Positions 17,322 to 44,647 of a DNA stretch of 64,000 bases are shown piece after piece (position 1 is the stretch's first letter; every line of letters begins with the position of its first letter). Made by a program: the position numbers and the translations under genes. The DNA comes from an uncultured Roseovarius sp. Lineage in GTDB: Bacteria > Pseudomonadota > Alphaproteobacteria > Rhodobacterales > Rhodobacteraceae. The stretch spans positions 1 to 64,000 of the forward strand of contig NZ_CANLER010000012.1 of the NCBI RefSeq assembly GCF_947489715.1, in the 5' to 3' direction. The notes beneath the pieces are model-generated. The model saw only the letters and a program-made list of their open reading frames with translations. It did no database searches and was not told the DNA's origin.

Positions 17322-17445
17322 CCGGCCGGTTCAATCTGGTCGCGCGCTGACGCGGAAATGTCGGGGAAACCGGCGGCATCATCCACACCATTGCTATTCT
17401 GTCAACGATTTGTTCATTTGCGGCGACCAACAGAGAGGATCACAG

Positions 17446-18699
17446 ATGCGGTTTTCGGGCCTGCGTGTTCTGAAAGAGGGCTTGACCGGCAACAAGGGCT
17501 GGGCGCCGCACTGGCGCGACGCCAGCCCCAAAGACGCCTATGACGTGGTGATCATCGGTGGCGGCGGGCACGGGCTGGCCACCGCCTATTACCTGGCCAA
17601 GAACCACGGGATCACCAATATCGCGGTGCTGGAAAAGGGCTATCTGGGCGGCGGCAACATTGGCCGCAACACCACCATCGTGCGGGCCAATTACATGCTG
17701 CCCGGCAATGCCGAATTCTACAGCCACTCGCTGAAACTGTGGGAAGGGCTGGAGGAGGAGCTGAATTATAACGTGATGATGTCGCAGCGTGGCCAGATCG
17801 TGCTGTTTCATTCCGACGGGCAGCGCGACGCGCTGGCGCGCAAGGGCAACGCCATGCGAAACCAGGGCGACGACGCGGAGATGCTGGACCGCGAGGGCGT
17901 GCGCAAACATCTGCCCTATCTCGATTTCGACAATGCGCGTTTTCCGGTCTATGGCGGCATCCTGCAACGCCGCGCCGGCACCGCGCGTCACGATGCGGTG
18001 GCCTGGGGTTTTGCCCGGGGTGCCAGCGACAGGGGCGTGGACCTTGTTCAGAATTGCGAGGTCACCGGCATCGACATAGAAAATGGTGTCGCGACCGGGG
18101 TACAGACCACGCGCGGGGCGATCCGGGCGAAGAAAGTGGCGATGATCGTGGCTGGGCGCTCGTCTCAGGTGGCGGCCATGGCGGGCATGCGCCTGCCGAT
18201 CGAAAGCCACGTGTTGCAGGCCTTTGTCAGCGAAGGGCTGAAGCCTGTCATCAATCACGTGGTCAGCTTCGGGATGGAGCATTTCTATATCAGCCAGTCC
18301 GACAAGGGCGGGCTGGTCTTTGGCGGCCATCTGGACATGTATGCCAGCTATGCCGCGCGCGGCAACCTGCCGGGGGTCGAACATGTGATGGAGGCGGGCA
18401 TGGCGCTGATGCCGATGATCGGCAAGGCAAAGATGCTGCGCAGCTGGGGCGGGATCATGGACATGTCGCCCGATGGCTCGCCTATTATCGACAAGACGCC
18501 GACCCAAGGGCTCTACCTGAATTGTGGCTGGAACTACGGTGGCTTCAAGGCTGTTCCTGCCTCGGGCTGGGCCACGGCGCATCTGGTGGCGACGGATACC
18601 CCCCATGACACCGCCGCGAGGTTCCGGCTGGACCGGTTCCGCACCGGGCAAGGGCTGATGGATGAGGAGGCGACCGGCGCGCAGCATAACCTGCATTGA
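17446..18699 (+). CDS. soxB: Sarcosine oxidase subunit beta
   Basis: The 417-residue flavoprotein is the catalytic beta subunit of heterotetrameric sarcosine oxidase, which demethylates sarcosine to glycine with transfer of the methyl carbon to tetrahydrofolate. It has the FAD-binding VVIIGGGGHGLATAYYLAKN near 30-50, the GNIGRNTTIVRANY region, and the C-terminal GLYLNCGWNYGGFKAVPASG. I chose ATG 17446 (MRFSGLRVLKEG) with GAGAGGA before it; in-frame sequence further upstream is not conserved-looking. It is the first gene in the order beta, delta, alpha, gamma. Confidence 0.95.
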   Translation: MRFSGLRVLKEGLTGNKGWAPHWRDASPKDAYDVVIIGGGGHGLATAYYLAKNHGITNIAVLEKGYLGGGNIGRNTTIVRANYMLPGNAEFYSHSLKLWEGLEEELNYNVMMSQRGQIVLFHSDGQRDALARKGNAMRNQGDDAEMLDREGVRKHLPYLDFDNARFPVYGGILQRRAGTARHDAVAWGFARGASDRGVDLVQNCEVTGIDIENGVATGVQTTRGAIRAKKVAMIVAGRSSQVAAMAGMRLPIESHVLQAFVSEGLKPVINHVVSFGMEHFYISQSDKGGLVFGGHLDMYASYAARGNLPGVEHVMEAGMALMPMIGKAKMLRSWGGIMDMSPDGSPIIDKTPTQGLYLNCGWNYGGFKAVPASGWATAHLVATDTPHDTAARFRLDRFRTGQGLMDEEATGAQHNLH

Positions 18700-18762
18700 C
18701 GCGCTGTCCGGAAAGGTTGGGCTTTTGAGTATTTTTGCCAAGAAGAAGATGGGGCGCGCGAC

Positions 18763-19041
18763 ATGAGGATAACCTGCCCGAATTGCGGCGACCGCGACCG
18801 GCGCGAGTTTTACTATACCGGTGCTGCGACTTTTCTGGACCGCCCGGCGCCGGATGCCGGGGGGGCGGCGTGGGATGATTACCTGCACAACCGCGACAAC
18901 CCGGCGGGGGTGACCCGGGACCTGTGGTATCACGAGACCGGCTGCGCGGCGTGGCTGGTGGTGACCCGCAATACGCTTACCCATGAGGTGCTCAAGACCG
19001 AGCTGGCGGCGGATGTGAAAGGGCAGCGCAATGCGGGTTGA
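18763..19041 (+). CDS. soxD: Sarcosine oxidase subunit delta
   Basis: The 92-residue protein begins MRITCPNCGDRDRREF, the zinc-binding start of the delta subunit; later His and Cys residues (YHETGCAAW) complete the site. It helps assemble the heterotetramer. It lies 63 bases after soxB and overlaps soxA by 11 bases. The 63-base gap contains the string TTGAGTATTTTTGCCAAG, an AT-rich patch unusual for such a tight operon. Confidence 0.93.
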   Translation: MRITCPNCGDRDRREFYYTGAATFLDRPAPDAGGAAWDDYLHNRDNPAGVTRDLWYHETGCAAWLVVTRNTLTHEVLKTELAADVKGQRNAG

Positions 19042-21961
19042 GGGCGCAGGGCTGATCGACCGCACCAAACGGATCGGATTTTCCTTTGACGGGCATCAGT
19101 ACGAAGGCTTTGCCGGCGACACGCTGGCCTCGGCGCTGCTGGCCAATGACATCACGCTGGTGGGGCGGTCTTTCAAATACCACCGTCCGCGCGGCATCCT
19201 GACCGCGGGCAGCGAAGAACCCAACGCGCTGGTTATGCTGGGGCTTGAGGCCGGGCAGGAACCCAATGTGCGCGCCACCACCGCAGAGCTGTTCGAGGGT
19301 ATGCTGGCACGCAGTCAGAACCGCTGGCCCACGCTTGCTTTCGATCTGATGGCCGCAAATGACCTGGTCGCGCCGTTCCTGGGGGCCGGTTTCTATTACA
19401 AGACCTTCATGTGGCCCAGGGTGTTCTGGGAAAAGCTGTATGAGCCTATCATCCGCCGTGCGGCAGGGTTGGGCGCGCTGTCGGGCCAGCACAATGCCGA
19501 CAAATACGAAAAGGCTTTTGCCCATTGCGACCTGTTGGTCATTGGCGGCGGTCCTGCCGGGTTGATGGCGGCGCGGGCGGCGGCACAGGCGGGGGCGGAT
19601 GTGATCCTTTGTGACGAAGACACCCGCACCGGCGGGCGGCTCAATGCCGAAACGCTTGAGGTGGATGGCAGGCCCGGTCACCACTGGGCGGCGGAACTGA
19701 CCGCCGATCTGGTGGCGATGGACAATGTCCGGGTGATGACTCGCACCACTGTCATGGGCACCTATGATCAGGGCACCTATGGCGCGATTGAAAAACTGTC
19801 GCCTGACTTGGCGATGCGTGCCGGTGCGCCGCGTGAATGTTTCTGGCGCATTGCCGCCAAACGCGCCGTACTGGCAGCGGGTGCGCTGGAACGCCCCGTC
19901 GCCTTTGCCAATAATGACCGGCCCGGCGTGATGATGGCGGGCGCGGTGCGGGCCTATCTCAATCGGTGGCGGGTGAGCCCGGGCAAGAATGCCGTTGTTT
20001 TCGGCAATACCGACAGCGCGCACCGTACGGCGGCGGATCTGCTGGCGGCGGGGGTGCATGTGTCGGCGCTTATAGATTCGCGCCATCATGCCACCTGCGA
20101 TCTGGACATCCCCTTCCATGCCGGGGCCAGAATTTGCGAGGCGCATGGTCGCAAGGGCCTTGAGGCGGTTTCTGTCGCATCGGTCAGCGGTATCGATAAG
20201 ATCCAGGCCGATTGTCTGGCCATGTCCGGCGGCTGGAACCCGTCGCTGCACCTGACCTGCCACAGGGGTGCCAAACCGGTCTGGAGCCCGGATCACGAGG
20301 CGTTTCTGCCGGTGGATGGTGCCCTTCCCGGGCTTGAGACTGCCGGCGCCTGCCGCGGTGATTTCTCGACCCGCGCCTGTCTCGAAGGCGGTGTGGCCGC
20401 CGCCAATCGCGCGCTTGAGGATATGGGCCTTAAACCGGCCAAGCCCGAGATCCCGAAAGCCGAGGACAGCGCCTATGACATCGCCGCGCTCTGGGCCGTG
20501 CCGGGCAAGGGCCGCGCCTGGCTGGATTTCCAGAACGATGTAACCGTCAAGGATATCAAACAGTCAGCCACTGAAAACTTCCGCTCGGTCGAGCATATGA
20601 AGCGCTACACCACGCAGGGCATGGCCACCGATCAGGGCAAGAACTCGAACGTGGCAGCACTTGCGGTGTTGGCCGACGCCACCGGGCAAGGCATTGTCGA
20701 AACCGGCACGACCACCTTTCGTCCGCCCTATGTGCCGGTATCCATCGCGGCGATGGGCGCGGGTAGTCAGGGCACGGGGTTCGCGCCGCAGCGTTACATG
20801 ACCTCGCACCGTGCCAGTGTCGAACGTGGCGCGCCAATGATCGAAGTGGGCCTCTGGTACCGCCCCAGTATCTTTCCGCGCGCCGATGAAACCCACTGGC
20901 GGCAATCCTGCGACCGCGAGGTCGACATGGTGCGCGGGTCGGTGGGCATCGCCGATGTCTCGACCCTGGGCAAGATCGACATTCAGGGGCCGGATGCGGC
21001 GCAATTCCTTGATTTCGTCTACACCAACACCTTTTCGACCCTGCAAAAAGGCCGGGTGCGGTATGGGCTGATGCTGCGCGAAGATGGCCATGTGATGGAT
21101 GATGGCACCACCGCGCGTCTAAGCGGTAAACACTACCTGATGACCACGACGACCGCCGCCGCCGGAGAGGTGATGCGGCATCTGGAGTTTGTGCACCAGT
21201 GCCTGTGCCCGCAGCTTGATGTACGGTTCATCTCGGTCACCGAACAATGGGCGCAATTTGCCGTCGCCGGGCCGAAATCGCGCGACCTGCTGAACGCCTT
21301 GCTGGATCAGCCCATCGACAACGAAAGCTGGCCTTTCATGTCCTGTGGCAATGTCGCCATCGGCGGCACCGCGGCACGGCTTTTCCGCATCTCGTTTTCG
21401 GGCGAGCAGGGCTATGAGCTGGCCGTGCCCGCGCGCCACGGCGACAGTCTTTTCCGTGAACTCGTCTCTCGTGCCGAGGCGCTGGAGGGCGGCGCCTACG
21501 GGATGGAGGCGCTCAATATTCTGCGGATCGAAAAGGGCTTTATCACCCATGCCGAAATCCACGGCCGCGTTACCGCTTTTGACATCGGCATGGACCGCAT
21601 GATCAGCGCCAAGAAGGATTGCATCGGCAAGACCGCCGCGCAACGCCCGGGGCTTAGGGATGAAAACCGCGAACAACTGGTGGGCCTGAAACCCGTGGGC
21701 GCGGTCAAGGAACTGCTGGCAGGCGCCCATCTTTTCAACCCCGAGGATGAGGCGATCAGCGCCCATGATCAGGGCTACATCACCTCGGTCGGATATTCGC
21801 CCACTCTGGGACATGCGCTGGGGCTGGGCTTTCTCAAGCGCGGTCGCGCCCGCCTGGGGGAAAAACTGCGCATGGTCGATCACTTACGCGGCTCGGAAAC
21901 CCTGTGCGAGGTGATTGACCCGGTCCAGTTCGATCCAGAGGGAGGACGCCTGCGTGGTTGA
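19031..21961 (+). CDS. soxA: Sarcosine oxidase subunit alpha
   Basis: The 976-residue subunit has an N-terminal ferredoxin-like domain (FSFDGHQYEGFAGDTLASAL), a central NAD-binding domain with LLVIGGGPAGLMAARAAA near 170, and a C-terminal aminomethyltransferase-like, folate-binding half from about 580 (RASVERGAPMIEVGLWYRPS, SGEQGYELAVPA). It binds NAD and tetrahydrofolate and channels the methylene group. It overlaps soxD at its start and soxG at its end. Confidence 0.95.
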   Translation: MRVEGAGLIDRTKRIGFSFDGHQYEGFAGDTLASALLANDITLVGRSFKYHRPRGILTAGSEEPNALVMLGLEAGQEPNVRATTAELFEGMLARSQNRWPTLAFDLMAANDLVAPFLGAGFYYKTFMWPRVFWEKLYEPIIRRAAGLGALSGQHNADKYEKAFAHCDLLVIGGGPAGLMAARAAAQAGADVILCDEDTRTGGRLNAETLEVDGRPGHHWAAELTADLVAMDNVRVMTRTTVMGTYDQGTYGAIEKLSPDLAMRAGAPRECFWRIAAKRAVLAAGALERPVAFANNDRPGVMMAGAVRAYLNRWRVSPGKNAVVFGNTDSAHRTAADLLAAGVHVSALIDSRHHATCDLDIPFHAGARICEAHGRKGLEAVSVASVSGIDKIQADCLAMSGGWNPSLHLTCHRGAKPVWSPDHEAFLPVDGALPGLETAGACRGDFSTRACLEGGVAAANRALEDMGLKPAKPEIPKAEDSAYDIAALWAVPGKGRAWLDFQNDVTVKDIKQSATENFRSVEHMKRYTTQGMATDQGKNSNVAALAVLADATGQGIVETGTTTFRPPYVPVSIAAMGAGSQGTGFAPQRYMTSHRASVERGAPMIEVGLWYRPSIFPRADETHWRQSCDREVDMVRGSVGIADVSTLGKIDIQGPDAAQFLDFVYTNTFSTLQKGRVRYGLMLREDGHVMDDGTTARLSGKHYLMTTTTAAAGEVMRHLEFVHQCLCPQLDVRFISVTEQWAQFAVAGPKSRDLLNALLDQPIDNESWPFMSCGNVAIGGTAARLFRISFSGEQGYELAVPARHGDSLFRELVSRAEALEGGAYGMEALNILRIEKGFITHAEIHGRVTAFDIGMDRMISAKKDCIGKTAAQRPGLRDENREQLVGLKPVGAVKELLAGAHLFNPEDEAISAHDQGYITSVGYSPTLGHALGLGFLKRGRARLGEKLRMVDHLRGSETLCEVIDPVQFDPEGGRLRG

Positions 21962-22499
21962 TCTGAGTGCAAATTCCCCCTGTGCCGGGCTCTTGCCCCT
22001 TACCATCGGCAGCGTCACCCTGTCCGAGGCCACACCCGGCACATTGACCAGCATCGCGCCCTATAATGGGCAGGACAAGGCCCTGTCGGCTGCGCTTAAA
22101 TCCCTGCACGGCATGGCCGCACCGGCCCCCAATCGTGCGACCGGCAAAGAGGGCGCGCGCGCGATCTGGTTCGGCCAGCGCATGATCCTGCTGCAAGGCC
22201 CGCCACCGGATCCCGGCCTGGCAAAACACGCGGCCCTCACCGATCAGTCCGATGCCTGGGCCGTGGTGCGCCTGGAAGGGGCCGGGGCCGCCGACACGCT
22301 TGCGCGCCTGACGCCCATTGACCTGCGCGACAGCCAGTTCAAGCGGGGTCACACGGCGCGCACGGAACTGAGGCACATGATGTCAGGCATCACCCGCCTG
22401 GGGCCGAATAGCTATCAGATCATGGTGTTTCGTGGCTTTGCCCAGACCCTCGTGCATGACCTCAAGACCGCCATGCAAGGCGTTGCCGCCAGAGGCTGA
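21954..22499 (+). CDS. soxG: Sarcosine oxidase subunit gamma
   Basis: The 181-residue gamma subunit shows the family features AWAVVRLEGAGAADTLARL, LTPIDLRDSQFKRGHTART and the terminal YQIMVFRGFAQTLVHDL region. I chose GTG 21954 because GGAGG lies eight bases before it (21941-21945) and it overlaps the soxA stop by eight bases. It is the last gene of the operon; a strong stem-loop follows four bases after its stop. Confidence 0.9.
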   Translation: MVDLSANSPCAGLLPLTIGSVTLSEATPGTLTSIAPYNGQDKALSAALKSLHGMAAPAPNRATGKEGARAIWFGQRMILLQGPPPDPGLAKHAALTDQSDAWAVVRLEGAGAADTLARLTPIDLRDSQFKRGHTARTELRHMMSGITRLGPNSYQIMVFRGFAQTLVHDLKTAMQGVAARG

Positions 22500-30093: not shown

Positions 30094-32118
30094 TCACCGC
30101 CAGATCCCTGAATAAGAAGCAAAAATCCCTTGTAGTTTGGAGAGTATCCGGTTTGCTGCACCGGGATGAGGGACCGCGCCCGAGGCCAACCTGTCTATGG
30201 CCGTCTCGACCGAGCAGGCGGTGCCGGTGAGCGGATCGAAGTAACGCGGATAGTCAATCAGCGCAGCATGTACCAGCCCTGTCAAACTGGGTTTCGCGGT
30301 ACGGCGACCGGGGACAACGCCAACATCGCGGGTTAGCGCCCAGCCCGCGTAGAACGGCGCGCCAGTAGTGGTCACGGCCACGCCGCGGATCAATGCTTCG
30401 AACCCCATGAGCGAGGTCATGGTCCACACCTCATCCACCTGTTGCAGCAAGGCGGCAGGATCGGCGTGATCCAGTACGAAATCTGCCAGCTCCGCCATTT
30501 CGGCAGGATCGATTTTGCCTGCTCTGAGCCCTGCTTCAACATCTGGGTGCGGTTTGTAGAGAATGATTGATTCTGGGTTCTCAGCCCTCACACGCTCCAG
30601 CAGCGCTTGATTGGTAGAGACCGTGCCTGCGCCAAGGCGGATCGAGGCATCATCCTCGACCTGACCTGGCACCAGAATACGGTGTCCGACCGGTAAATCC
30701 GCTACGCCTTTACCCAGATTGTATTTCGAGAGGCCGAGCCTGATGATGCTTGAAATTAGCCTTTCAGCCCGGATTTCCTGATCGGGGCGCAGGGTGGCCC
30801 GTTTTGCAATCCATTCTTCCAGACGGCTGGGAGAGCTGGGATCATAGTATATGCCTAGATCGTCGCAGACCAGCGATAGTGGCGGAACCAGTTTCGCACC
30901 CAATCCGCGTGAGCGCAGAAATCCGTCTTCGATACGCAGAGCGGCCGGCGGTGCGCGCTCGATCTGGCTGGCCCAAGCCATGATGCGTTTATCCTTGGCG
31001 GGTGTGCCGCTATTGTGAAAAATTACGCGACCGTGTTGACCAAAGAAACGTTGCAAGGGCCTGCGTTTCCATAGTCGCATCCCGTGGGCTGACCAACCTT
31101 GCCGATCCTCGCGCCAGCATCTTACCTGTGCCTCAAGGATGGCCAGGGCATCCTCTATTTCGCACAGACAGTCGCGATGCGGATCGTACCAGGTGGGGTA
31201 AAGGATCATGGCGGCGGCAAAAAGCTGTGCGCGGCTGAGGGGGCGCCCGCGCCGGGCAAGGGACACCGGGTGGCGATCTTCGGTCAGGTTCCAACCGGCA
31301 TAGAAGGGCTGTCCAAAAACTTGTGGTCTGTGACCTGCAAAAATGGCCTCGAAACCCATTTGCGAGCTGACAGTGTAGACCGCGACAGCGCCGTCAAAAA
31401 GCGCCCAGGGGCTGACCCGGTCGGCCAATAGTTCGATGCGGTCTGAAGCATCCTGGGGGCCGAAATATCCGGGCCGGTTGCCATCCGCTGTTTCCGGGTG
31501 CGTTTTGATCAGAACTTTCGCGCCGGGGTGATCTTCCTGCGCATAGTAAAGCATTTCGCGGAAGGTGTTGGCATCCGCCTGCCCGTGGATCACGCTGGCA
31601 TCGCCCTTGGTCTGGTCAATCACCAGAACATAACCGGGATCGGGGCAGGGGGTGGTAGGGTCGAAAGCGTTGTATTTACTCAGATGTGCCTCTTGCAGAT
31701 AAGCAATCGCCCCCCGCGCGCGATCCATCAGAGCGGTGTCATCCAGGGGATGCGTGGCCAGCAGATGCTCCAGATCCGAAGGCTGGCTGCTGTCGAAATG
31801 CACCCCAGTTTGGTCAATCACTAGACCAAGCGGAGGTGTCCCCTCACGGCCAGGATGGACCGAGCGCAAAAACGCGTCTTCTACCCGGATTATCCCCGCG
31901 CCGGTGCTTTCCGCGACCGCTTCGCCACGCTTTGCATAAGGGGAATGGCCCCAAACCGCGATCAGATCGTCAGCAGAGGGTTTGCCGATCTGCAACGGAT
32001 AACCGGCCAATTCCAGCATGCGGCGAACGCGGCGCTGACGCAGAAACCCGGCGTTAAAATAGAAAACCCGCCGGGGTGTCGCAGCCCCGGCGGGAGAACG
32101 CTTTTCGTCATCGGACAT
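30094..32118 (-). CDS. KpsC-like capsule glycosyltransferase
   Basis: The 674-residue protein shows a clear internal duplication typical of KpsC, which builds the beta-Kdo linker on the lipid anchor of exported capsule. Motifs appear twice: RVEDAFLRSVHPG and RIEDGFLRSRGLG; VLIKTHPE and ILYKPHPD; QMGFEAIFAG and LMGFEALIRG; GQPFYAGWNLTED and GAPFYAGWALTRD. Each half is one Kdo transferase domain. I chose ATG 32118, sharing one base with the stop of the export gene upstream (TGATG), and not the longer in-frame extension. It is last in the block kpsS-like, export protein, kpsC-like. Confidence 0.9.
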   Translation of the reverse strand: MSDDEKRSPAGAATPRRVFYFNAGFLRQRRVRRMLELAGYPLQIGKPSADDLIAVWGHSPYAKRGEAVAESTGAGIIRVEDAFLRSVHPGREGTPPLGLVIDQTGVHFDSSQPSDLEHLLATHPLDDTALMDRARGAIAYLQEAHLSKYNAFDPTTPCPDPGYVLVIDQTKGDASVIHGQADANTFREMLYYAQEDHPGAKVLIKTHPETADGNRPGYFGPQDASDRIELLADRVSPWALFDGAVAVYTVSSQMGFEAIFAGHRPQVFGQPFYAGWNLTEDRHPVSLARRGRPLSRAQLFAAAMILYPTWYDPHRDCLCEIEDALAILEAQVRCWREDRQGWSAHGMRLWKRRPLQRFFGQHGRVIFHNSGTPAKDKRIMAWASQIERAPPAALRIEDGFLRSRGLGAKLVPPLSLVCDDLGIYYDPSSPSRLEEWIAKRATLRPDQEIRAERLISSIIRLGLSKYNLGKGVADLPVGHRILVPGQVEDDASIRLGAGTVSTNQALLERVRAENPESIILYKPHPDVEAGLRAGKIDPAEMAELADFVLDHADPAALLQQVDEVWTMTSLMGFEALIRGVAVTTTGAPFYAGWALTRDVGVVPGRRTAKPSLTGLVHAALIDYPRYFDPLTGTACSVETAIDRLASGAVPHPGAANRILSKLQGIFASYSGIWR

Positions 32119-33263
32119 CACAGTCCAAGCGTATCCTCGGCTGTTGAAACCGACCCTACAGCACCAAGTGTGCCGGTAAGGGCTGAGATGACCTTGCTCC
32201 ATTGGGCGAACGGTGCCTCGGTTACGTAGATCGTATCATCATCCCGGATCGCGAAATCACGAGCCATGAACATGCCGTTGGGCTGTGTCAGGTCAAGCAC
32301 ATAGACCAGACGTTGGGCACCGATAAGGTCATCGCGGCCCAGAACCTGATTGGCAATTTCAGCGGGTTCGTTGCGCATGATGAAGACGCCAGTCGGGTCC
32401 GCTGCCCCTGCTGTCAGCCCGCCGACAGTGGCAATCGCTTCGACTGCGCTGAGAGTTTGGGTTTCAAAGGTCACGCGAGCCTGCGATCCGGTTGCCCCAA
32501 GCGCTGTGAAGGCGCGCGTGTCCTGTTCAACGAGGATACGGTCACCGCCGCGCAAGGCGATGTCGAATTCGGGGTTTTTGAATAAGTCCTGGAACCAGAC
32601 CTTCGACTGGTGTTCCCCGCGGATCACGGTGACTTGGGCGACTTCGGGCGGAATGGCGACGCCACCTGCAGCGGCCAGCATCGCAGACAGCCTGCGGGTT
32701 GGTTGTTCGATAGGATAAACACCCTGACCATTAACAGCGCCGACCAGAGATACCGTTGAGCCGTTACCGGCAAGCCTGCGCACCTCGACCTGCGGGTCAG
32801 GCGTTTGTTCGTCCAGCTTGGCAGTGATGATCCGGCGGATCGCCTCGGGCGAGTTGCCAGCGGCGCGGATGCGCCCGGCATAGGGCACGAAGATGAAACC
32901 GGCACCGTCGACCTGAACTTCTTCCAGCACGGTCTGGCTCTGAGCTTCGCCTGCCAGAAGGCCGTCATCGACGTTTTCCCAGATGGTCAGCCCCAGCGTA
33001 TCGCCGGGACGGATGGTATCTGCGCCGATTGACCCGGCTCTCAGAAAACTGTCACTGAAGCCGAGGGCAGGTTGCACCGCTGTCGCGCGGGTCACCCTGT
33101 CATTTACGGATACAACGAAGGCATCGCCGGATTTTTGCACTGATCCCGCATAGATCTCTTTCTTGTTCGGCCCGACGCGGGGAAGCGTGCCACAGGACGC
33201 CACCATGGCCACAACGACGAAAAGGGCGACGGACTTCGCCCAGCGTTTGGATTGGGAGTTCAC
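32118..33263 (-). CDS. Outer-membrane polysaccharide export protein (Wza/KpsD-like)
   Basis: The 381-residue lipoprotein has a signal peptide with lipobox VASC (Cys24), then the polysaccharide biosynthesis/export domain (about 80-170: IRPGDTLGLTIWENVDDGLL, QVDGAGFIFVPYAGRI) and two SLBB-like repeats (VSLVGAVNGQGVYPIE, ARVTFETQTLSAVEAI). It should form the outer-membrane channel for capsule export. The start is GTG 33263, with GAGGAG about ten bases before it. It lies between the two Kdo transferase genes; the ABC transporter KpsMT and KpsE are not in this window. Confidence 0.9.
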   Translation of the reverse strand: MNSQSKRWAKSVALFVVVAMVASCGTLPRVGPNKKEIYAGSVQKSGDAFVVSVNDRVTRATAVQPALGFSDSFLRAGSIGADTIRPGDTLGLTIWENVDDGLLAGEAQSQTVLEEVQVDGAGFIFVPYAGRIRAAGNSPEAIRRIITAKLDEQTPDPQVEVRRLAGNGSTVSLVGAVNGQGVYPIEQPTRRLSAMLAAAGGVAIPPEVAQVTVIRGEHQSKVWFQDLFKNPEFDIALRGGDRILVEQDTRAFTALGATGSQARVTFETQTLSAVEAIATVGGLTAGAADPTGVFIMRNEPAEIANQVLGRDDLIGAQRLVYVLDLTQPNGMFMARDFAIRDDDTIYVTEAPFAQWSKVISALTGTLGAVGSVSTAEDTLGL

Positions 33264-33358
33264 TGCTCGGTCTCCTCGACCTGTTTATACTGCCTCGGTC
33301 TTTTTTAGGTAAGTTAGCGGAATCCCGATGTAAAATCCAGAGATTGTAACGGCGTGGC

Positions 33359-34651
33359 TTAACTGACGACGTGCAACTGTTGCCTTGGGGCCGCGGTGCC
33401 GGATTTCAATGCATCATAGGGATCGTCCGCTGTAAGCAGCATGTCGACCACCTGTCGCATCAATTGGCGACGCCCGCGCGAGGAATAAAACCCGCCCGCG
33501 ATCTGGCTGGTTTCAAGCAGATACCGGCGATAATCTTTATAGGCACGATGATCGGGGCGTTCTGCACCGGCAAAGAAATCGATGAGGGGTTCGGTAGAGA
33601 CGAATTCCGGTTTGTCATAGACGGCCTGGCCAAAGGTTTTGAGCGGAATGCCCCGCCACAGCACTTGTTGCGCTGCGGTAGAGTTCACGGTGACGGCGCT
33701 ACGTGCCTCGTCCAGCAATTTCGCCAGTTTGCCGCCGCGCACGTAATGTACCCGCCCCTCAAGTCCGCGTGCTTTCGCCAACCGCTTCAACTCCCGCCGG
33801 ATCGGCGCGCGGCCGTCTTCCAGCGGATGGGCTTTGACCACCAAATGGTGATGCGGCGGCGCTCCTTTCGCGAAACCGTCGATCACCGTTTCCAGAAACT
33901 CCGCCATGGTTGAGAAAGGTGAATGCGCCTGGAAAGACGCATCGTGTTCCAACTGCAAAAGCGCCAGATGATAGGGGAAACCACCGTATTTGATGCGCAA
34001 GGTAGCAATCCGGCGATCCAATGCCTGCGCGGGCATCAATAGCAGTCGCTGTAGGTAAAGCTTGAATTCCTGAGACACACTCAAGCTGCGATGTGGTTGA
34101 AAGTTTCGGTAGCGGCGGTTCATCAGAAAAACGAAGCCATGATAGACCGCGCCATAAAAGATATGCTCACGCATGTCGCCCCAACTTGCCGGAGGCAACG
34201 GTGCGTCCATATCAGAATTTTCCAAGGCGCTGCGCATGTCGTCGATGCTCATGTCCATCAACCGGGAATGGCCATTGGTTCCGTCACGCTCATATGTCAC
34301 CCAATAAGGGCGCATGTAACCCTCTTCGAAGACGTGGATGCGCAACCCCAGGGCGCGGGCGCGCTGCACAGCCTGCGCGTGGATCGGACGCGTATCGCCA
34401 TATAGGACGATGTCGGTCACGTTCTTCTCGGTAACCAGGTTCGAGAATGCATCGGACCAATCCGCGCTGTCACCTAGATAGGGAATGTAGCTTGCCTTGT
34501 CGCGCCAGAACGCCCGGTCGCCGGCGTTAAATCCGACGCGCCAGACCTCAGCACCGGATTTACGCAACATGCGGCCCAATTTGCTGAAAAACGGCCCGTG
34601 TGGTCCCTGAAGGAACAGAAACACGCGGTCTTTTCCCGTCAGAATTTCCAT
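33359..34651 (-). CDS. KpsS-like capsule glycosyltransferase
   Basis: The 430-residue protein resembles KpsS, the enzyme that adds the first Kdo to phosphatidylglycerol during capsule linker synthesis. Motifs include FLFLQGPHGPFFSKLGRMLR at the start, LYGDTRPIHAQAVQRARALG near 100, IHVFEEGYMRPYWVTYERDG, LVVKAHPLEDGR near 275 and TVNSTAAQQVLWRGIPLKTF near 325. Its upstream region (34652-34835) is shared with the divergent ribE gene. It is the first gene of the three-gene capsule block. Confidence 0.88.
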   Translation of the reverse strand: MEILTGKDRVFLFLQGPHGPFFSKLGRMLRKSGAEVWRVGFNAGDRAFWRDKASYIPYLGDSADWSDAFSNLVTEKNVTDIVLYGDTRPIHAQAVQRARALGLRIHVFEEGYMRPYWVTYERDGTNGHSRLMDMSIDDMRSALENSDMDAPLPPASWGDMREHIFYGAVYHGFVFLMNRRYRNFQPHRSLSVSQEFKLYLQRLLLMPAQALDRRIATLRIKYGGFPYHLALLQLEHDASFQAHSPFSTMAEFLETVIDGFAKGAPPHHHLVVKAHPLEDGRAPIRRELKRLAKARGLEGRVHYVRGGKLAKLLDEARSAVTVNSTAAQQVLWRGIPLKTFGQAVYDKPEFVSTEPLIDFFAGAERPDHRAYKDYRRYLLETSQIAGGFYSSRGRRQLMRQVVDMLLTADDPYDALKSGTAAPRQQLHVVS

Positions 34652-36624: not shown

Positions 36625-37680
36625 TCAACCCCAGATATCCCCGATTTTGTAGCCCTCTGGGAAAGGATCCGTGGGGTCGAGCATGTAATTGGTTGTGCCA
36701 TAAATCCAGCCTTGGCCCGCCAATGTTGGGATTATGGCGGGGTAGGTACCAACGCTGGTAATCTCTTGGATACGACCAGTAAAAGTGGTTCCCATGGGCC
36801 CAGCGTTGACATAGTCCTGCCCCACTGCCAACTGGCCACGGGCGTGCAGAACAGCCATTTTTGCACAGGTTCCGGTGCCGCAGGGTGACCTATCCAGAGT
36901 ACCCGGCAAAGCGTGTGGACGATTTGGATCAAAGCCACCGGTTGAAAGCGTAATCGCGCCTCGGCCATCGGTATCGGGGGCGACCGGCGCGCCCCAAAGA
37001 TTGGTGATAGTCGGACCGGTGATCTCGGGGTTTTCCGGGTGCACAACGGGCAGTTGTTCTACTGTTGCGGCTCGGATCGCCTCGGAGATTTTGACAATCT
37101 CCGCCCCGTTATCGCCCCCCAGATCAACGCCCAGATGATCGGCATTTGCCAGAACAAAAAACATACCACCCCAGGCAATATCAACGTTGATGTGGCCCAG
37201 GCCGGGCACCTCGACCGAAGCGTCAAGATGCATGGCGAAAGCGGGCACATTGCGGAAGGTCACCCGGGTAACCTTGCCGTTTGCACACTCTGCGCGCACA
37301 GTGATCAATCCGGCGGGGGCTTCCAGTGTCAGCTCGGTCACTGGTTCTTGCATCGGCAAAATGCCGGTCTCAAGCAAGACCGTTACCACGCAGATTGCGT
37401 TTGAGCCGGACATCGGAGGATACTCGGTCTGTTCCATGATGATGAAACCGGCATCGGCGCGCGGATCGCATGGTGGCACGATGACATTACAGCACAGCGC
37501 CGGTTGGCCGCGCGGCTCTCGCAGCATGAGCAAGCGAATGTCGTCCGCATGCGTCTGCATCCATTGCATTTTTTCAAAAACGTTTTTGCCCGGCATATTC
37601 GGGACGCCCGCGGTGATCACTCGGCCCGGCTCACCCTCGGCGTGGGCTTCGACGGCTGTTATCATTCGTGACGTGCGCAT
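36625..37680 (-). CDS. Proline racemase family protein (hydroxyproline epimerase or dehydratase type)
   Basis: The 351-residue protein matches the proline racemase fold, including the second catalytic site DRSPCGTGT (Cys267). The first catalytic cysteine of racemases is replaced by Ser91 in PPMSGSNAICVVT. Cys-Cys members are racemases or 4-hydroxyproline epimerases and Thr-Cys members are trans-3-hydroxyproline dehydratases; the Ser-Cys type has been linked to mixed or weak activities, so substrate is open. A nearby ketoglutarate-semialdehyde-type dehydrogenase supports hydroxyproline catabolism. GAGGGGAT precedes the start. Confidence 0.85.
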   Translation of the reverse strand: MRTSRMITAVEAHAEGEPGRVITAGVPNMPGKNVFEKMQWMQTHADDIRLLMLREPRGQPALCCNVIVPPCDPRADAGFIIMEQTEYPPMSGSNAICVVTVLLETGILPMQEPVTELTLEAPAGLITVRAECANGKVTRVTFRNVPAFAMHLDASVEVPGLGHINVDIAWGGMFFVLANADHLGVDLGGDNGAEIVKISEAIRAATVEQLPVVHPENPEITGPTITNLWGAPVAPDTDGRGAITLSTGGFDPNRPHALPGTLDRSPCGTGTCAKMAVLHARGQLAVGQDYVNAGPMGTTFTGRIQEITSVGTYPAIIPTLAGQGWIYGTTNYMLDPTDPFPEGYKIGDIWG

Positions 37681-38829: not shown

Positions 38830-39480
38830 TCAATCGTTGTCTGTTAGCCCTGCACCAGCGCCTGCAAGACGGCTTTCGGGTGTGTCGGGGGCATAGGTGC
38901 GATGGGCAAATGCACCCAGGACTTTGGCAGTGTCTTCGGGAATTTCGGCACGTAGATGGGCACGTTGTAAATCATTTACCGCAGCATCACTGATGCGCAC
39001 CGAAATGCTATCTGCTTGATCGGTTTGCAGTGTCGCATCTTTGGATAATTCGATTTGTCCGCGAGCGGTGATTGTGGCTTTCGTGCCCGGCCATTTGATT
39101 TCCATAGTTCTTCCTACCAGCTGCGCCGCACCGGCGACAAAGGGTAATAACAACATCGGAAAGGACGTCCGGCCAAGGTCAACGTCACGGCCTGCGGCGA
39201 TATCCGCTGCATGATCGCAGATGACGGCACCTGTGATGAGAGGGCAGAGTTGGCCGCTGTCCGCCGCCCAGATTCCCTGGGTTTCCAAAGGGCAAAGCGA
39301 TTCATAGACCTTGCCGTCATTCTGGGTGAGCAGCGCCGAGAGCATTTCTGGGCCTGGCAGACCTGTGCTGGCCAGCCAGCGAACGGATTTACCGGCCTCT
39401 TCGGCCAGTCCCCAGCTTAGTCCGGAACCGCGCGCCGCCTTGCGTGCCAGCCCTTCAACTTCATTCAATGACCAGCTCAT
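38830..39480 (-). CDS. DUF3726 family protein
   Basis: The 216-residue cytosolic protein begins MSWSLNEVEGLARKAARGSG and matches what I know as DUF3726, a family with no assigned function found mainly in Rhodobacterales. No catalytic motif is clear; the fold looks mixed alpha/beta with a central hydrophobic stretch (RTSFPMLLLPFVAGAAQLVG). I chose ATG 39480, which overlaps the stop of the 565-residue gene by four bases, so the two proteins are made together and may form a complex. It is the last gene of the four-gene unit. Confidence 0.75.
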   Translation of the reverse strand: MSWSLNEVEGLARKAARGSGLSWGLAEEAGKSVRWLASTGLPGPEMLSALLTQNDGKVYESLCPLETQGIWAADSGQLCPLITGAVICDHAADIAAGRDVDLGRTSFPMLLLPFVAGAAQLVGRTMEIKWPGTKATITARGQIELSKDATLQTDQADSISVRISDAAVNDLQRAHLRAEIPEDTAKVLGAFAHRTYAPDTPESRLAGAGAGLTDND

Positions 39481-41174
39481 GCGGATTGGTCCGACAGGTA
39501 GGGATAGGTCCAATCATCAGCGTTTCCGCTGGCTAGCTCATGCGGGAAAGGGGCGTGTTGGAACATGTTGATCCGCACCCAACGGTCGGATCGTGGATCG
39601 AAATGACAGGCTCCAAAGAACGAGAGTTTGGCCCGTAACAAATCAATCGGCATGACATCAGAGCTGATCGTGTTGTCCCGGATTTCCGCATAGGGGTGTT
39701 TTGCAGCAATTTGCGCGCGACGCACCACATGGCGATGTTCAGGATGGCGCAGCAGGAATATGGCAACGGGGCCATCAGCAAAGCCCTTGAGGTCGGCATA
39801 CATGCGCGCGGCATCACGCCCCGGGCAAAGCGGTTGTTCATAGGGTTCGATCGGTTCATCAAATCGTTCACCCATGCGCGGCTCCAGCTTTTCTTCTGAC
39901 ACGTACCAGACCCGCGCCTGCGCGTCGCGGCTGGTCCAGTCGATTTCCAGCGCCCAAGCATAGATATCTTCGATTAACGCCTTCAGCGTGGCTATGCTCA
40001 TTGATCCATCGATGCGGTAGAAATGCGCTTCGTCGGCGGACATGCAGCAGCTAAGCCCGTCGACCAGACCGCCATAGGGTTCCATCAAGATCGAGGCCAG
40101 TTGCTCCTGTCCCTCAACCGAAAGCGCGGTTTCGGCCCAGAGCCATAGGCGGTTCCAGGGAAGGTTGCTGGCCAGATCTGCGGTTTCCAGATGGCTACAC
40201 AGTGTCTCCATATCGGCGCGCAGATGTTTGAGCTTCTCAATTTGTACGGGATGCTCCGACGTCCAATAGTCCGAATGGAGTTGTGCGCGGGCTGCTATCC
40301 GGCGGAATGCAAGGGCCTCGTCATCGGTCGCCGAGGGCAGGGAGCGAATGCGCGCCAGAGCCTCTTCGCGCGCGGAAATCCAATTACTGATCAGGGCCGG
40401 ATGGTTCAGCAAAAAAGGCGCCATGCCCAACCCGGTGGAATTACCGATGCCAAACCGCCGCCGCAGTGCCGGGTCCAGAGCAACTGCTGTATCCGGCGCG
40501 CGCAGTTTCGCCATATGTTCCACCAGGTCCATGACAAAGGCGCGGGTCAGAAAGACCGAGAGCATTTCGATCTGGAACGGGCCCTGGCATTCGGACCGGT
40601 GCGATGATTGTTCACGGTCTGCTGCGCCGAATTTACCAGAGCCATAGACTGCCGTGGTGCGCATCAGATACCCAACGTCCTCGATCTTCTCCAGATCGGG
40701 CTGTTGTCCTTTCGAAAGCATGCCGACGACATAATCCCACAAACGGACAGACCGGTTTGCACGCGAGAGCGACAGTTCTTTTTCGCTGACTCGGCCTGCT
40801 TCCTGTTTGGGAACGTTGCGGGACAAACGGTCGACATCCTCTTCGGTCGGGACCCCGTCGAAAAGCGTAAAGGTCGCGTCCCATTCGGTTGCAATCACAC
40901 GGTCGGAGCGTTTTTCGGGCGGCAGGTCATTGGCAAAAGCCACTAGTGAATAGCTGCGCTCTGGTCCATGGGCCGTATAAACAGCCCTGCCAACGCCACG
41001 TTCGTTGATGTCGAAAACGGAGCGTTCAAACGTCCAGCTCTCTGATTTCAGCCGTCGCAGCAGCACCCGCATAAACGACAGGCGAGATTGGTGAAAAGAA
41101 CCCATGCGTTCAAGCCGCATAACAACATTAGGGTCTCGGGGGGCGATGGTGCGGGTTGGATCAGGGTTTTGCAT
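39477..41174 (-). CDS. Conserved-looking 565-residue protein of unknown function
   Basis: I do not recognise this family. The protein is soluble and charged, rich in Arg and Glu, with no signal peptide, membrane helix, Rossmann motif or P-loop. Stretches that look conserved-like are GNSTGLGMAPFLLNHPALIS near 255, YGSGKFGAADRE near 172 and FFGACHFDPRSDRWVRINMF near 525. AGGAGG lies seven bases before ATG 41174. It overlaps the DUF3726 gene by four bases and follows the M19-like gene by 42, so it acts in the same pathway. It may be an enzyme or the large partner of the DUF3726 protein. Confidence 0.75.
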   Translation of the reverse strand: MQNPDPTRTIAPRDPNVVMRLERMGSFHQSRLSFMRVLLRRLKSESWTFERSVFDINERGVGRAVYTAHGPERSYSLVAFANDLPPEKRSDRVIATEWDATFTLFDGVPTEEDVDRLSRNVPKQEAGRVSEKELSLSRANRSVRLWDYVVGMLSKGQQPDLEKIEDVGYLMRTTAVYGSGKFGAADREQSSHRSECQGPFQIEMLSVFLTRAFVMDLVEHMAKLRAPDTAVALDPALRRRFGIGNSTGLGMAPFLLNHPALISNWISAREEALARIRSLPSATDDEALAFRRIAARAQLHSDYWTSEHPVQIEKLKHLRADMETLCSHLETADLASNLPWNRLWLWAETALSVEGQEQLASILMEPYGGLVDGLSCCMSADEAHFYRIDGSMSIATLKALIEDIYAWALEIDWTSRDAQARVWYVSEEKLEPRMGERFDEPIEPYEQPLCPGRDAARMYADLKGFADGPVAIFLLRHPEHRHVVRRAQIAAKHPYAEIRDNTISSDVMPIDLLRAKLSFFGACHFDPRSDRWVRINMFQHAPFPHELASGNADDWTYPYLSDQSA

Positions 41175-41216
41175 CGTCGGCCTCCTTGGCTTGAATGGGA
41201 TGTAGAACGGTTGAGA

Positions 41217-42203
41217 TCAGATGGTAATTACCGGTGCAAAATTTTCGTCGTAAAAGCGTAACCAGTTGTCACCCATCAGGCCGGCCACTTCGGTTTCGTC
41301 AAAACCGACTTTACGTAGGCCGGCCTCGATATTGCCGAAATCGCGATTGTCTTTGAACCAATCCGGCTGCGGTGGGAAGCCCGGCGCACTAGCCGATCCT
41401 TCGCCATAGTCGATTTCCTTGGACCAGCGACCCACGCGCATCCATTCGACGATACTGTCGGGCTGATCCTGGCAGAGGTCGCTGCCGATGCCAAAATTTT
41501 GTGCACCGAAGGTTTCGGCGGCTGTCGCGATCATTTCGCAGAAACTGTCCAATGTGCAGTCGGACTTACCCTTCAGGTGATGCGGATACATCGAAAAACC
41601 CATCATGCCGCCGTTTTCGATGACCGCGCGCACCACGTCGTCACGCTTGTTGCGCAGGGCGGGCTGCCATGAATGTAGATTGGCGTGGGTAATAGCGATC
41701 GGGCGTTCCGAAATCTCTGCTGTTTCGATGGTCGAGCGATCTGCGGAATGGCTCATGTCCACGACCAGGCCAACCCGGTTCATTTCCTTGATCACCTGCT
41801 TGCCCATGCGGGTGATGCCGGGGTCTTCGGCCTCGTAACACCCGGTCGCAAGCAGCGATTGGTTGTTATAGGTCAGCTGCATGAAACGCGCACCAAGCTT
41901 GTGCACGATTTCAACCAGCCCGATATCATCCTCGATCGGGGCAGGGTTCTGGAAGCCAAAGAAGATCGCCGTGCGACCGGCCTCTTTGGCCTTGCGCACA
42001 TCGTCACCCCATTCGCCCCGGCAGATCAGATCCGGGTATTGTTCGAACCAGCGGTTCCACTGTTCGAGGTTCAGAACCGTTTCGCGGAAATTCTCGTGGT
42101 ACGAAATCGTGACATGGATGGCGTCGACATCTCCTTCGCGCAACTGGCGGAAGATTTTTTCCGACCAGTTGGCATATTGCAGATTGTCGATCCGATACGT
42201 CAT
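41217..42203 (-). CDS. M19 (renal dipeptidase-like) protein with altered metal ligands
   Basis: The 328-residue protein follows the M19 membrane-dipeptidase pattern in its middle and end: RFMQLTYNNQSLLATG, KEMNRVGLVVDMSHSADRST with the zinc His, PIAITHANLHSW with the second zinc His, and a C-terminal GDNWLRFYDENF. The usual HxD motif reads HVT (DAIHVTISYHENF), and the bridging Glu position reads Gln (FFGFQNPAPIED). Metal binding and the reaction may therefore differ from peptide hydrolysis. No signal peptide is present, so it is cytosolic. It overlaps the aldehyde dehydrogenase gene by four bases. Confidence 0.82.
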   Translation of the reverse strand: MTYRIDNLQYANWSEKIFRQLREGDVDAIHVTISYHENFRETVLNLEQWNRWFEQYPDLICRGEWGDDVRKAKEAGRTAIFFGFQNPAPIEDDIGLVEIVHKLGARFMQLTYNNQSLLATGCYEAEDPGITRMGKQVIKEMNRVGLVVDMSHSADRSTIETAEISERPIAITHANLHSWQPALRNKRDDVVRAVIENGGMMGFSMYPHHLKGKSDCTLDSFCEMIATAAETFGAQNFGIGSDLCQDQPDSIVEWMRVGRWSKEIDYGEGSASAPGFPPQPDWFKDNRDFGNIEAGLRKVGFDETEVAGLMGDNWLRFYDENFAPVITI

Positions 42204-43651
42204 GCCGGTGTTCCTGCCGCGATGTAGGCGGTTTTGACCGTGGTGTAGAATTCCTTGGCGTAGGTGCCCTGTTCACGCGGACCGTAAGAGCTGTCGCCGC
42301 GACCGCCGAAGGGCACATGGTAGTCGGTACCAGCGGTGGGCAAGTTTACAGTGACAACACCAGTGCGCGCGTTACGGCGGAAATGTGTGGCGCGGGCCAG
42401 GTTTTGCGTGACGATACCGGCGGTCAGGCCGAAATTGGTGTCATTGACCGTTGCAATCGCTTCGTCATAGCTGTCGACCTTGATGACAGCGGCCAGCGGC
42501 GCAAACATCTCCTCGCGGTTGATCCGCATGTTATTGTTTGTGTTCAGGAAAACGCCGGGGGTCATATAGTAGCCTTCGGTCGCGCGTTCAACACGGGCGC
42601 CACCGCAGGCCAGCTCAGCGCCCTCAGATTTACCTAGATCGACATAGGCCAGGTTTTCGTTGAGTTGCTGTTCGCTGACCACCGGCCCGATCTGTGTACC
42701 TCCTGCCAATGCGTGATCGACCTTCATCGCTTCGGCGCCTTTGATCAGTTTTTCGACAAAGGCGTCATGAACGCCCGCATGCACGATCAGGCGCGACGAG
42801 GCAGTACATTTCTGACCCGAGCCGCCAAAGGCTCCGCCCAGGGCCAGGGTGACGGCCAGATCGACATCGCCATCATCCATCACCGCAAGGGCGTTCTTGC
42901 TGCCCATCTCAAGCTGAACCTTTGTCAGGTTCTGAACGGCGGCAGTGGCGATGCCTTTGCCGACCGGCACAGATCCGGTAAACGAAATTGCATTCACTTT
43001 GGGGCTTTCGACCAGACGCTGCCCCACATCGCGGCCTGCCCCCATGACCAGGCTAAACAGACCCGCAGGAATGTCCTGACGGCTGATGATTTCGGTCAGG
43101 GCTACGGCCGAGGCAGGGGTGACATTGGCAGGCTTCCAGATCACCGCATTGCCATAGGCCAGCGCCGGGGCGATTTTCCAGCTGGCGGTGGCGGTGGGGA
43201 AGTTCCAGGGGCTGATGATCGCAACGGTGCCAATCGGCTCGCGGCGCACATCGACTTCGATGTTCGGGCGTACGCTGTCGGCGTTCTCACCCAACTGACG
43301 CAGGCATTCGGCGGCGTAGTAGGTAAAGAACTGTCCGGCGCGGAATACCTCACCCTTGCCTTCGGCCAGCGGTTTGCCTTCTTCCCGGCTGAGCAGCGTG
43401 CCCAGCTCTTCGGCGCGTGCCATCAGCTCATTACCGATTGACATCAGAACGGCCTGTTTGCGCTCCATGCCATAGCCAGCCCATTCTTTTTGGGCGCTTG
43501 TAGCTGCATCAAGCGCCTGTTCCAACTGGTCGCTGCTTGCCTGGGCATATAGTCCGATCAGATCGCTCAGATCGGATGGGTTACGGTTCTCAACCTCACC
43601 TGTGCCGGCGACCCACTGACCTGCGATGAAATTATGCTGTGATTGGCCCAT
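42200..43651 (-). CDS. Aldehyde dehydrogenase, alpha-ketoglutarate-semialdehyde type
   Basis: The 483-residue enzyme has the aldehyde dehydrogenase motifs: the cofactor region ISPWNFPTATASWKIAPALA, FTGSVPVGKGI, the catalytic Glu in QLEMGSKNALAVMDD and the nucleophile Cys in GGSGQKCTASSRLIVH. Overall it resembles enzymes oxidising 2-oxoglutarate semialdehyde to 2-oxoglutarate, the last step of hydroxyproline and pentose routes; the exact aldehyde is inferred. I chose ATG 43651 (MGQSQHNFIAGQW) with AGGGGAC before it. It heads the four-gene unit, 114 bases after the LysR gene. Confidence 0.88.
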   Translation of the reverse strand: MGQSQHNFIAGQWVAGTGEVENRNPSDLSDLIGLYAQASSDQLEQALDAATSAQKEWAGYGMERKQAVLMSIGNELMARAEELGTLLSREEGKPLAEGKGEVFRAGQFFTYYAAECLRQLGENADSVRPNIEVDVRREPIGTVAIISPWNFPTATASWKIAPALAYGNAVIWKPANVTPASAVALTEIISRQDIPAGLFSLVMGAGRDVGQRLVESPKVNAISFTGSVPVGKGIATAAVQNLTKVQLEMGSKNALAVMDDGDVDLAVTLALGGAFGGSGQKCTASSRLIVHAGVHDAFVEKLIKGAEAMKVDHALAGGTQIGPVVSEQQLNENLAYVDLGKSEGAELACGGARVERATEGYYMTPGVFLNTNNNMRINREEMFAPLAAVIKVDSYDEAIATVNDTNFGLTAGIVTQNLARATHFRRNARTGVVTVNLPTAGTDYHVPFGGRGDSSYGPREQGTYAKEFYTTVKTAYIAAGTPA

Positions 43652-43765
43652 AGGTTGTCCCCTTTTGATGCAGCGTGTCTGGCAAGAATCTTCATCTCTA
43701 TTACCGCACATCGCAACGATTCAGGCAAATGCAAACTTATTAATTAAACTTCAGGAGAATTGAAT

Positions 43766-44647
43766 TTAACTGTGGATGATCGAGATGTCTGCCTGACGGA
43801 TCGCGTTGGCCAATGCCAAGGCCGCTGGCGTCAACATATGCGCGGCGGGCGTCACCATCCAGACCTCGCGCCTGGCGGAGCAATCGGTCAGCGGAAGGAA
43901 TTCAAGATCCAGAAATTCTGGTAGTACAGCAAGCTCGGGCAGGATCGTCACGCCAACACCGGCGCGAACAAGGCTTAGGATCGAGGCTGTGTTAGGCACC
44001 ATAAGCTGCGATGCGTTCAGGATCGGTGCGAAACCTTCGTCGTGTATTCCGTAGCACAGGCCGTTGGCGATGAAGTTTACACCTTCCAGATCCGCCCAGG
44101 TAAGCTCTGACCAATTCTGTGCCAACGGATTATCAACCGGGCAGACGACGCCGAACCGATCCGAAAATATCAACTCCCGGTCGAAACCCGGCATATGTCG
44201 CAATGTGGCCATTCCGATATCTGCGCGTTCGGATGTCAGTTCGCGTTGTACTGATGCGCTGTCGGCATCGCGCATGTCAATCCGAACGCCTGGATGCTTT
44301 TGCATGAACTCTTGCAAGATATTCGGTAACACGGCCTGCGCAACCGATGGTGTCACGGCTAGGCGGACATGTCCCAACTCCGCGCGCGATAGCCCTTCGA
44401 TTGCGGTAACCGTACGCTCAAAGTGTTCAAGCTCGCGCCGGGCCTCAATCAAGACCATTTCGCCCAAAGGTGTCAGGCGGGACTTGCGGGCGCTTTCGAA
44501 GAGAGCGGAGCCGACGTGATCTTCGAATTGACGTAACATCATCGACACCGCCGAAGGCGTGCGCCCGAGTGTCTGTGCCGCATCTGCCAGGCTGCCTTGA
44601 TCGGCAACCGTACGGAAACAACGAAGCATTTCGATCTTGATTGCCAA
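43766..44647 (-). CDS. LysR-family transcriptional regulator
   Basis: The 293-residue protein has a LysR N-terminal winged helix (MLRCFRTVADQGSLADAAQT, then LGRTPSAVSMMLRQFEDHVG, about 6-50) and a substrate-binding domain (LGHVRLAVTPSVAQAVLPNI from about 90). It is encoded directly upstream of and in the same direction as the aldehyde dehydrogenase unit, so it is the likely regulator of that pathway. The inducer is unknown. Its 5' region is shared with the divergent epimerase gene. Confidence 0.9.
   Translation of the reverse strand: MAIKIEMLRCFRTVADQGSLADAAQTLGRTPSAVSMMLRQFEDHVGSALFESARKSRLTPLGEMVLIEARRELEHFERTVTAIEGLSRAELGHVRLAVTPSVAQAVLPNILQEFMQKHPGVRIDMRDADSASVQRELTSERADIGMATLRHMPGFDRELIFSDRFGVVCPVDNPLAQNWSELTWADLEGVNFIANGLCYGIHDEGFAPILNASQLMVPNTASILSLVRAGVGVTILPELAVLPEFLDLEFLPLTDCSARREVWMVTPAAHMLTPAALALANAIRQADISIIHS

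Follow-up and report, generated by a model that had tools for sequence, protein, structure and literature searches.

The locus described here raises the question of which compound is degraded by an operon in which two of the four gene products have no known function. The operon lies in a stretch of 64,000 nucleotides from an uncultured Roseovarius sp. (RefSeq assembly GCF_947489715.1, contig NZ_CANLER010000012.1, positions 1 to 64,000), hereafter called the window. Behind a LysR-type regulator, it encodes an aldehyde dehydrogenase (ALDH), a protein related to the M19 dipeptidases, a 565-residue protein that we call P565, and a DUF3726 protein (PF12525). An initial annotation made from the sequence alone had proposed that these genes, together with a nearby proline racemase family gene, degrade an imino acid or its derivative by steps not yet described, and our analysis supports this interpretation in part. 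P565 and DUF3726 are an obligate, widespread pair, and carriers of the operon include marine and soil bacteria as well as a haloarchaeon. With moderate confidence, we suggest that the LysR-linked operon serves the breakdown of an N-methylated betaine that is probably of the pyridine or piperidine 2-carboxylate type, with homarine (N-methylpicolinate) as the likeliest substrate.

P565 and DUF3726 as a pair

A profile built from 31 sequences detected P565 in 53 of 385 Alphaproteobacteria genomes, including genomes of 1.2-1.4 Mb. A phylum sample of 398 genomes, overlapping with the Alphaproteobacteria set, had it in 29. PF12525 was present in 43 of the 385 genomes, and P565 in all 43 of these (Fisher p 9e-48, treating genomes as independent); comparison of the two match tables placed each PF12525 match directly 3' of P565. 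The initial annotation had made its proposal depend on the two proteins occurring together in other genomes, and they do so. Ten genomes had P565 without a PF12525 match: G258 and G310 (loci L062 and L077) have the partner by a custom profile, G057, G074, G122, G338 and G373 hold distant members, and G077, G084 and G088 hold broken or cut P565 copies. At the level of loci, 108 of 116 showed a same-strand match to the DUF3726 profile whose end lies downstream of P565 by no more than 1.3 kb (weakest E 0.05). The other eight comprise L034, which ends inside P565, and seven distant members; in those distant members that were examined (L114, L139 and L142), an open reading frame of 240-251 aa occupies the DUF3726 slot.

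Carriers of P565 relatives include Roseobacters, gammaproteobacterial and Acidimicrobiales metagenome-assembled genomes (MAGs), Vibrio and rhizobial plasmid records, and one haloarchaeon. One pattern scan of a genome contig collection yielded 36 relatives from Roseovarius, Nioella, Acidimicrobiales, Granulosicoccaceae, Halieaceae and other MAGs, and a scan of virus contigs with two short patterns only found none. At 29-33% identity, P565 is also found in Sinorhizobium meliloti pSymB, Aminobacter aminovorans and Natrinema. A small partner, M19, a spermidine/putrescine-like ABC transporter and RidA accompany the two bacterial copies; the Natrinema copy stands with ALDH, an unnamed next gene and a BCCT transporter, with no M19 in the annotated stretch. 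Distant P565 units of rhizobia and a haloarchaeon, with Pot-like or BCCT transporters, were observed at L139 (8713-19659), L142 (8953-16684), L114 and L140.

As the initial annotation had recommended, structures of the two proteins were predicted, each singly. P565 stayed below the Pfam cut-offs (best score 13.6 against 23.5), had no NCBIfam match and gave a single chance-level match to PDB sequences (E 0.049). Its AlphaFold2 model had a predicted local distance difference test score (pLDDT) of 85.1 and a predicted template-modelling (TM) score of 0.87, and a Foldseek search of 350,542 PDB chains returned 119 matches up to E 10, the best at E 0.2 with a query TM score (TMq) of ~0.1, so that no relative was found. 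Among the sequences of 500-720 residues, 94 of the 102 that represent non-redundant loci (14 of the 116 were removed as at least 85% identical to another), 29 polar or aromatic residues are kept even in distant members; many are Arg, and His258, Glu270 and Glu431 are included. No metal, nucleotide or cofactor motif was seen by eye.

The DUF3726 protein looks like a reduced Ldh_2 fold in its predicted model (pLDDT 91.4). All 17 chains matched by Foldseek at E <0.001 were of the Ldh_2 type (probability 1.00, TMq 0.40-0.55, large root-mean-square deviation), with ureidoglycolate dehydrogenase as the best match (E 1.2e-4); piperideine-2-carboxylate reductase followed at E 7e-3. Alignment of DUF3726 with Ldh_2 by hhalign gave E 1.1e-4 and a probability of 57% over 53 columns, compared with E 0.09-0.5 for four unrelated pairs, and the partner proteins of L106-L113 (Pseudomonadota, another class) bridge DUF3726 (E 3e-12) and Ldh_2 (E 1.5e-4, probability 51%). 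The core fold looks alike, whereas the DUF3726 protein has ~216 aa against ~340 aa for Ldh_2 (PF02615) and gave no PF02615 profile match at E 0.1; judging from its length, it presumably lacks the nucleotide-binding part. The SHG motif, which we take to be catalytic in Ldh_2, is absent from the aligned DUF3726 proteins and from the L106-L113 partners examined. DUF3726 has its own C-terminal tail, SR..GAGAG..DND; 87/90 proteins carry a GAG-like triplet among their final 26 residues, and 56/90 finish with a DND-like triplet.

Because their adjacency is obligate, we take P565 and DUF3726 to form one enzyme. P565 would be the large catalytic subunit with an arginine-rich active site, and DUF3726 the small subunit, whose conserved tail may complete that site. 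The pair might instead be a non-enzymatic accessory or chaperone that matures the M19 protein, since P565, DUF3726 and M19 co-occur tightly and P565 has no visible cofactor motif; this is improbable, however, as the 29 conserved residues suit a ligand site, and P565 stands without M19 within 7 kb at 12/102 loci, some of which are cut by contig ends. A tentative and bolder possibility is that P565-DUF3726 represents the first example of a new fold class of enzymes, a cofactor-poor and arginine-rich pair that opens an N-methylpyridinium ring without oxygen; its small subunit would come from an imine reductase of the same operon, and it would include a substrate-shifted rhizobial class and a haloarchaeal copy. 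The pair with its unmatched fold is the most interesting part remaining, and with a confident P565 model unmatched in the PDB, determining a single structure would give access to a new family.

Neighbouring genes and partner enzymes

Neighbours within 7 kb of P565 were counted at the 102 loci with family thresholds set by the analyst, and 20 control regions were drawn from 20 carrier genomes, one from each. Loci L001, L038-L057 and L098-L105 (repeats or short) and L172 (two bases) were uncounted, L165-L171 belong to the genome of the window itself, and L173-L178 lie outside the counts. M19 was found at 90 and DUF3726 at 89 of the 102 loci, followed by ALDH of this type (38), LysR of this type (28), Ldh_2 (25, full-length and often the next gene) and RidA (13). 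Transporter-type neighbours were BCCT (20), OpuAC (6) and PotD (1). Rarer neighbours were DMGDH-type (8), Rieske (6), SoxA (3), MttB (3), GlxA (3), SoxB (2), GBBH-like (2), DddP (2), proline racemase family (2) and DoeA (1) genes. Every surveyed family scored 0/20 in the control regions except Rieske (1/20). The unit, for whose gene order the initial annotation had wished to see conservation checked, is a conserved one.

Named relatives show the layout LysR followed by ALDH-M19-BCCT-P565-DUF3726-Ldh_2. The full annotated version (LysR, ALDH, membrane dipeptidase, BCCT, hypothetical, DUF3726, Ldh) is seen in Phaeobacter inhibens 2.10, Ruegeria sp. TM1040 and Tritonibacter; among the annotated genes listed, P. 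inhibens DSM 17395 has no Ldh gene at the unit. The corresponding locus tags in Phaeobacter and TM1040 are PGA1_RS18845-18825 and TM1040_RS02320-02345. BCCT is placed after Ldh in Aliiroseovarius and Alisedimentitalea, and a glycine-betaine ABC transporter takes this place in Aminobacter sp. SR38 and Pararhizobium. Sulfitobacter has BCCT and an upstream RidA gene, with Ldh absent among the genes listed. LysR is divergent from the operon in the named plasmid relatives except Sulfitobacter. Two loci carry further genes: at L082 (10781-12475 and 2844-4484), two genes of the trimethylamine-methyltransferase family (MttB) and a DMGDH-like gene flank the P565 unit, and L030 (5389-6729 and 10388-12001) has DddP beside P565, at 611 bits over the equivalog cut-off of 600, as well as a Rieske plus glutamate-synthase-domain protein.

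The metal ligands of the M19-like protein are changed, as had been noticed from the sequence. Among the M19 proteins, 88 of 90 could be aligned, and all 88 have Gln85 at the position of the bridging Glu; the N-terminal HxD is absent, its former positions being mostly Leu and Tyr/Phe, and the first 28 profile positions are unmatched. H152, H173, R184 and D242 are kept. With ligand positions named after renal dipeptidase, three of the metal ligands of true M19 dipeptidases are missing. PDB entry 2i5g, an 'amidohydrolase' of the same family matched at E 3.8e-54, likewise has Gln in place of the bridging Glu. A role as dipeptidase was rejected because the bridging Glu is replaced by Gln and HxD is lost. 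The same changes make it very improbable that the operon serves the utilisation of peptides or cyclic dipeptides with M19 as the dipeptidase, although the M19 family match and oligopeptide-ABC-looking genes near the distant L088 copy would suit such a unit; betaine transporters are among the recurrent neighbours, in a survey for which no peptide-transporter model was run.

For the ALDH, the best NCBIfam models were those of 2,5-dioxovalerate and alpha-ketoglutarate-semialdehyde dehydrogenase (473 bits against cut-offs of 750 and 770; for NF042993, the latter enzyme, 472.7 bits against the equivalog cut-off of 770). The enzyme is therefore semialdehyde-dehydrogenase-like as had been claimed, though below the cut-offs. 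A PDB comparison at E 1e-100 gave no match, and this limit was too strict to be informative. The Ldh_2 proteins of relatives have delta1-piperideine-2-carboxylate reductase, the DpkA type of this family, as the nearest PDB entry (E 2.6e-55), and together with the Rid-family proteins in relatives, they support the imine-type chemistry implied by the initial annotation.

Candidate substrates

The presence of BCCT and OpuAC transporters in relatives makes a quaternary or N-methylated betaine the more likely substrate, and transporters and enzyme families together suggest a betaine that is degraded through imines or enamines. Transporter types vary among loci, with BCCT, OpuA and, in distant (class II) loci, Pot-like ABC transporters, and GBBH-like, DDAH-like and DddP genes stand near single loci. 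These observations would also fit another N-methylated zwitterion, such as trigonelline, a compound of the carnitine/gamma-butyrobetaine type or a derivative of a methylated polyamine; members of the P565 family would then differ in substrate specificity. We consider this unlikely, as GBBH and DddP are rare (2/102 each) and may mark general osmolyte islands.

The initial annotation had drawn on the nearby proline racemase family gene for its proposal. As a core member this gene was rejected on its presence in only 2/102 loci, and with it a hydroxyproline-type substrate is unsupported. A related explanation holds that betaines of the proline betaine, hydroxyproline betaine or N-methylproline types are demethylated elsewhere and then undergo imine and semialdehyde steps here; the protein of the racemase family would work together with Ldh_2 at the level of delta1-pyrroline-2-carboxylate. 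Betaine transporters, an Ldh_2 nearest to piperideine-2-carboxylate reductase, the alpha-ketoglutarate-semialdehyde-like ALDH, the racemase family gene near the unit in the window, L003 and L009, and genes of the DMGDH, Rieske and MttB types close to some loci agree with it. It is rather unlikely, however, given the rarity of the racemase family gene and its score of 375.8 bits against the trans-3-hydroxy-L-proline (T3LHyp) dehydratase model NF047722, which does not reach the equivalog cut-off of 550; hydroxyproline routes are not known to need P565, DUF3726 or M19. The racemase family protein itself has an MSGS motif, at a position where proline racemases presumably carry MCGH, and T3LHyp dehydratase is its nearest NCBIfam model.

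If the substrate is a betaine such as homarine, P565-DUF3726 would attack the cationic ring and open it to an enamine or imine semialdehyde, which the ALDH would oxidise to the acid. The M19-like protein, as an enzyme of the amidohydrolase type with an altered metal site, may then act on a C-N bond in the resulting product. In relatives, the remaining imine or enamine would be reduced by Ldh_2 or hydrolysed by a Rid protein, and the N-methyl part would be taken by an operon of the N-methylglutamate dehydrogenase (Mgd) type. In the Roseovarius-like genome of the window, these steps would be supplied from elsewhere; it holds an Mgd-type cluster and two relatives of Ldh_2 with 39% identity.

Several observations suggest a link between the operon and N-methyl metabolism. 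In Phaeobacter, TM1040 and Aliiroseovarius, the unit has sarcosine-oxidase-family genes and a helix-turn-helix regulator directly beside it, and the regulator beside the unit in L138 is of the GlxA/AraC type by a custom profile. According to PMC13390433, the AraC-type TmaR of Ruegeria pomeroyi adjoins mgdABCD, and Mgd is said, with citation of a 2026 paper, to take part in homarine catabolism. SoxA-type matches lie 6.6-7.6 kb from P565 in G065, G207 and G297, the latter two at only 45-46% identity. A contig of the window's genome (G000:C3) encodes a SoxA that shares 66% identity with its P. inhibens counterpart over 758 aa. Its gene lies in a putative N-methylglutamate cluster of the expected make-up, with a glutamine-synthetase-III-like (GMAS-like) gene that scores 305 bits against a cut-off of 470 and with class II amidotransferase-like and glutamate-synthase-like (Mgs-like) genes, the last two named from sequence. 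P565 is present in 14 of at least 24 genomes with this SoxA type at ≥60% identity, compared with 39/361 others, a count uncorrected for relatedness. Dihydrodipicolinate-synthase-like and ALDH-like genes were observed beside the putative cluster (L171, 884-3279). The window itself has a soxBDAG-type operon by a glutamate-dehydrogenase-like gene (17236-22499 and 15268-16698; SoxA 1264 bits, cut-off 1164), 16 kb from the unit.

Some points weigh against homarine and the mechanism proposed. The substrate is proposed from neighbours and enzyme families. P565 has no visible cofactor motif to go with the predicted attack on the ring. A transporter lies within 7 kb at only 26-27/102 loci and ALDH at 38, and many Acidimicrobiales loci show only M19-P565-DUF3726. 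SoxA is within 7 kb at 3/102 loci, with models that cannot separate Mgd from sarcosine oxidase, and the genomes behind its association with P565 span seven families among the 14 with P565 and eight among the 10 without. The likeness of DUF3726 to Ldh_2, with the TMq values, large deviations and hhalign probabilities of 51-57% given above, is modest.

If homarine or a like betaine is consumed, the unit would remove an osmolyte of phytoplankton that R. pomeroyi rapidly draws down (PMC12817926), and P565 could serve as a marker to be counted in metagenomes.

Gene layout and comparison with known systems

Table 1. Features of the unit and its surroundings in the window.
Feature	Position	Strand	Evidence and remarks
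LysR-type regulator	43766..44647	(-)	PF00126/PF03466; here co-directional with the operon
ALDH, alpha-ketoglutarate-semialdehyde-dehydrogenase-like	42200..43651	(-)	Pfam ALDH, 499 bits
M19-like protein	41217..42203	(-)	PF01244, 239 bits, cut-off 26; nearest PDB entry 2i5g
P565, 565-residue protein, family not recognised	39477..41174	(-)	below all Pfam cut-offs
DUF3726 protein (PF12525), 216 aa counted from ATG	38830..39480	(-)	79.2 bits, cut-off 22.1
Proline racemase family gene	36625-37680		Pfam; separated from the unit by a DUF2189 gene

The unit described in the initial annotation is real: its four genes are packed behind LysR, and both ATGA overlaps (ALDH/M19 and P565/DUF3726) were seen, with a gap of 42 bases between the M19 and P565 genes. 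The genes of the two proteins without known function, one assigned to DUF3726 by Pfam and the other without a family match, share an ATGA as described. The likely start of ALDH is the ATG at 43651, with a further ATG upstream at 43711, and that of DUF3726 is the ATG at 39480, with TTG at 39513 as a longer alternative. Downstream of the unit, Pfam recognises DUF2189 and proline racemase; the DUF2189 gene and the next gene, for a membrane protein, occur only in the window and in three or two close relatives among the loci compared. A scan for promoter-like and terminator-like sites gave 2 (4.7 expected) and 10 (8.1 expected), respectively. Genes at 30094-34651 resemble those for capsule polysaccharide export and modification.

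The working analogy for the proposed route is trigonelline catabolism by Tgn enzymes of Acinetobacter, in which the ring of an N-methylpyridinium carboxylate is opened, an aldehyde is then oxidised and a C-N bond is hydrolysed. The Tgn route employs a flavin monooxygenase, whereas the P565 unit has no such gene by Pfam.

In PMC9723723, homarine is one of the compounds for which no transporter has been confirmed in R. pomeroyi; the accessible part of PMC10130141 does not mention homarine. A search limited to one literature collection found no paper on DUF3726, none on PA5396 (the presumed gene of 2i5g) with dimethylglycine and no gene-level paper on homarine, which does not mean that the operon is unpublished. 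It may already be described in the 2026 homarine-pathway paper (Ferrer-Gonzalez et al. 2026, Nat Microbiol, doi 10.1038/s41564-026-02313-7), which is cited in PMC13390433. By its title and this citation, the conserved homarine pathway is found in environmental bacteria and involves Mgd; Sox/Mgd-type genes adjoin the operon described here in the three named genera.

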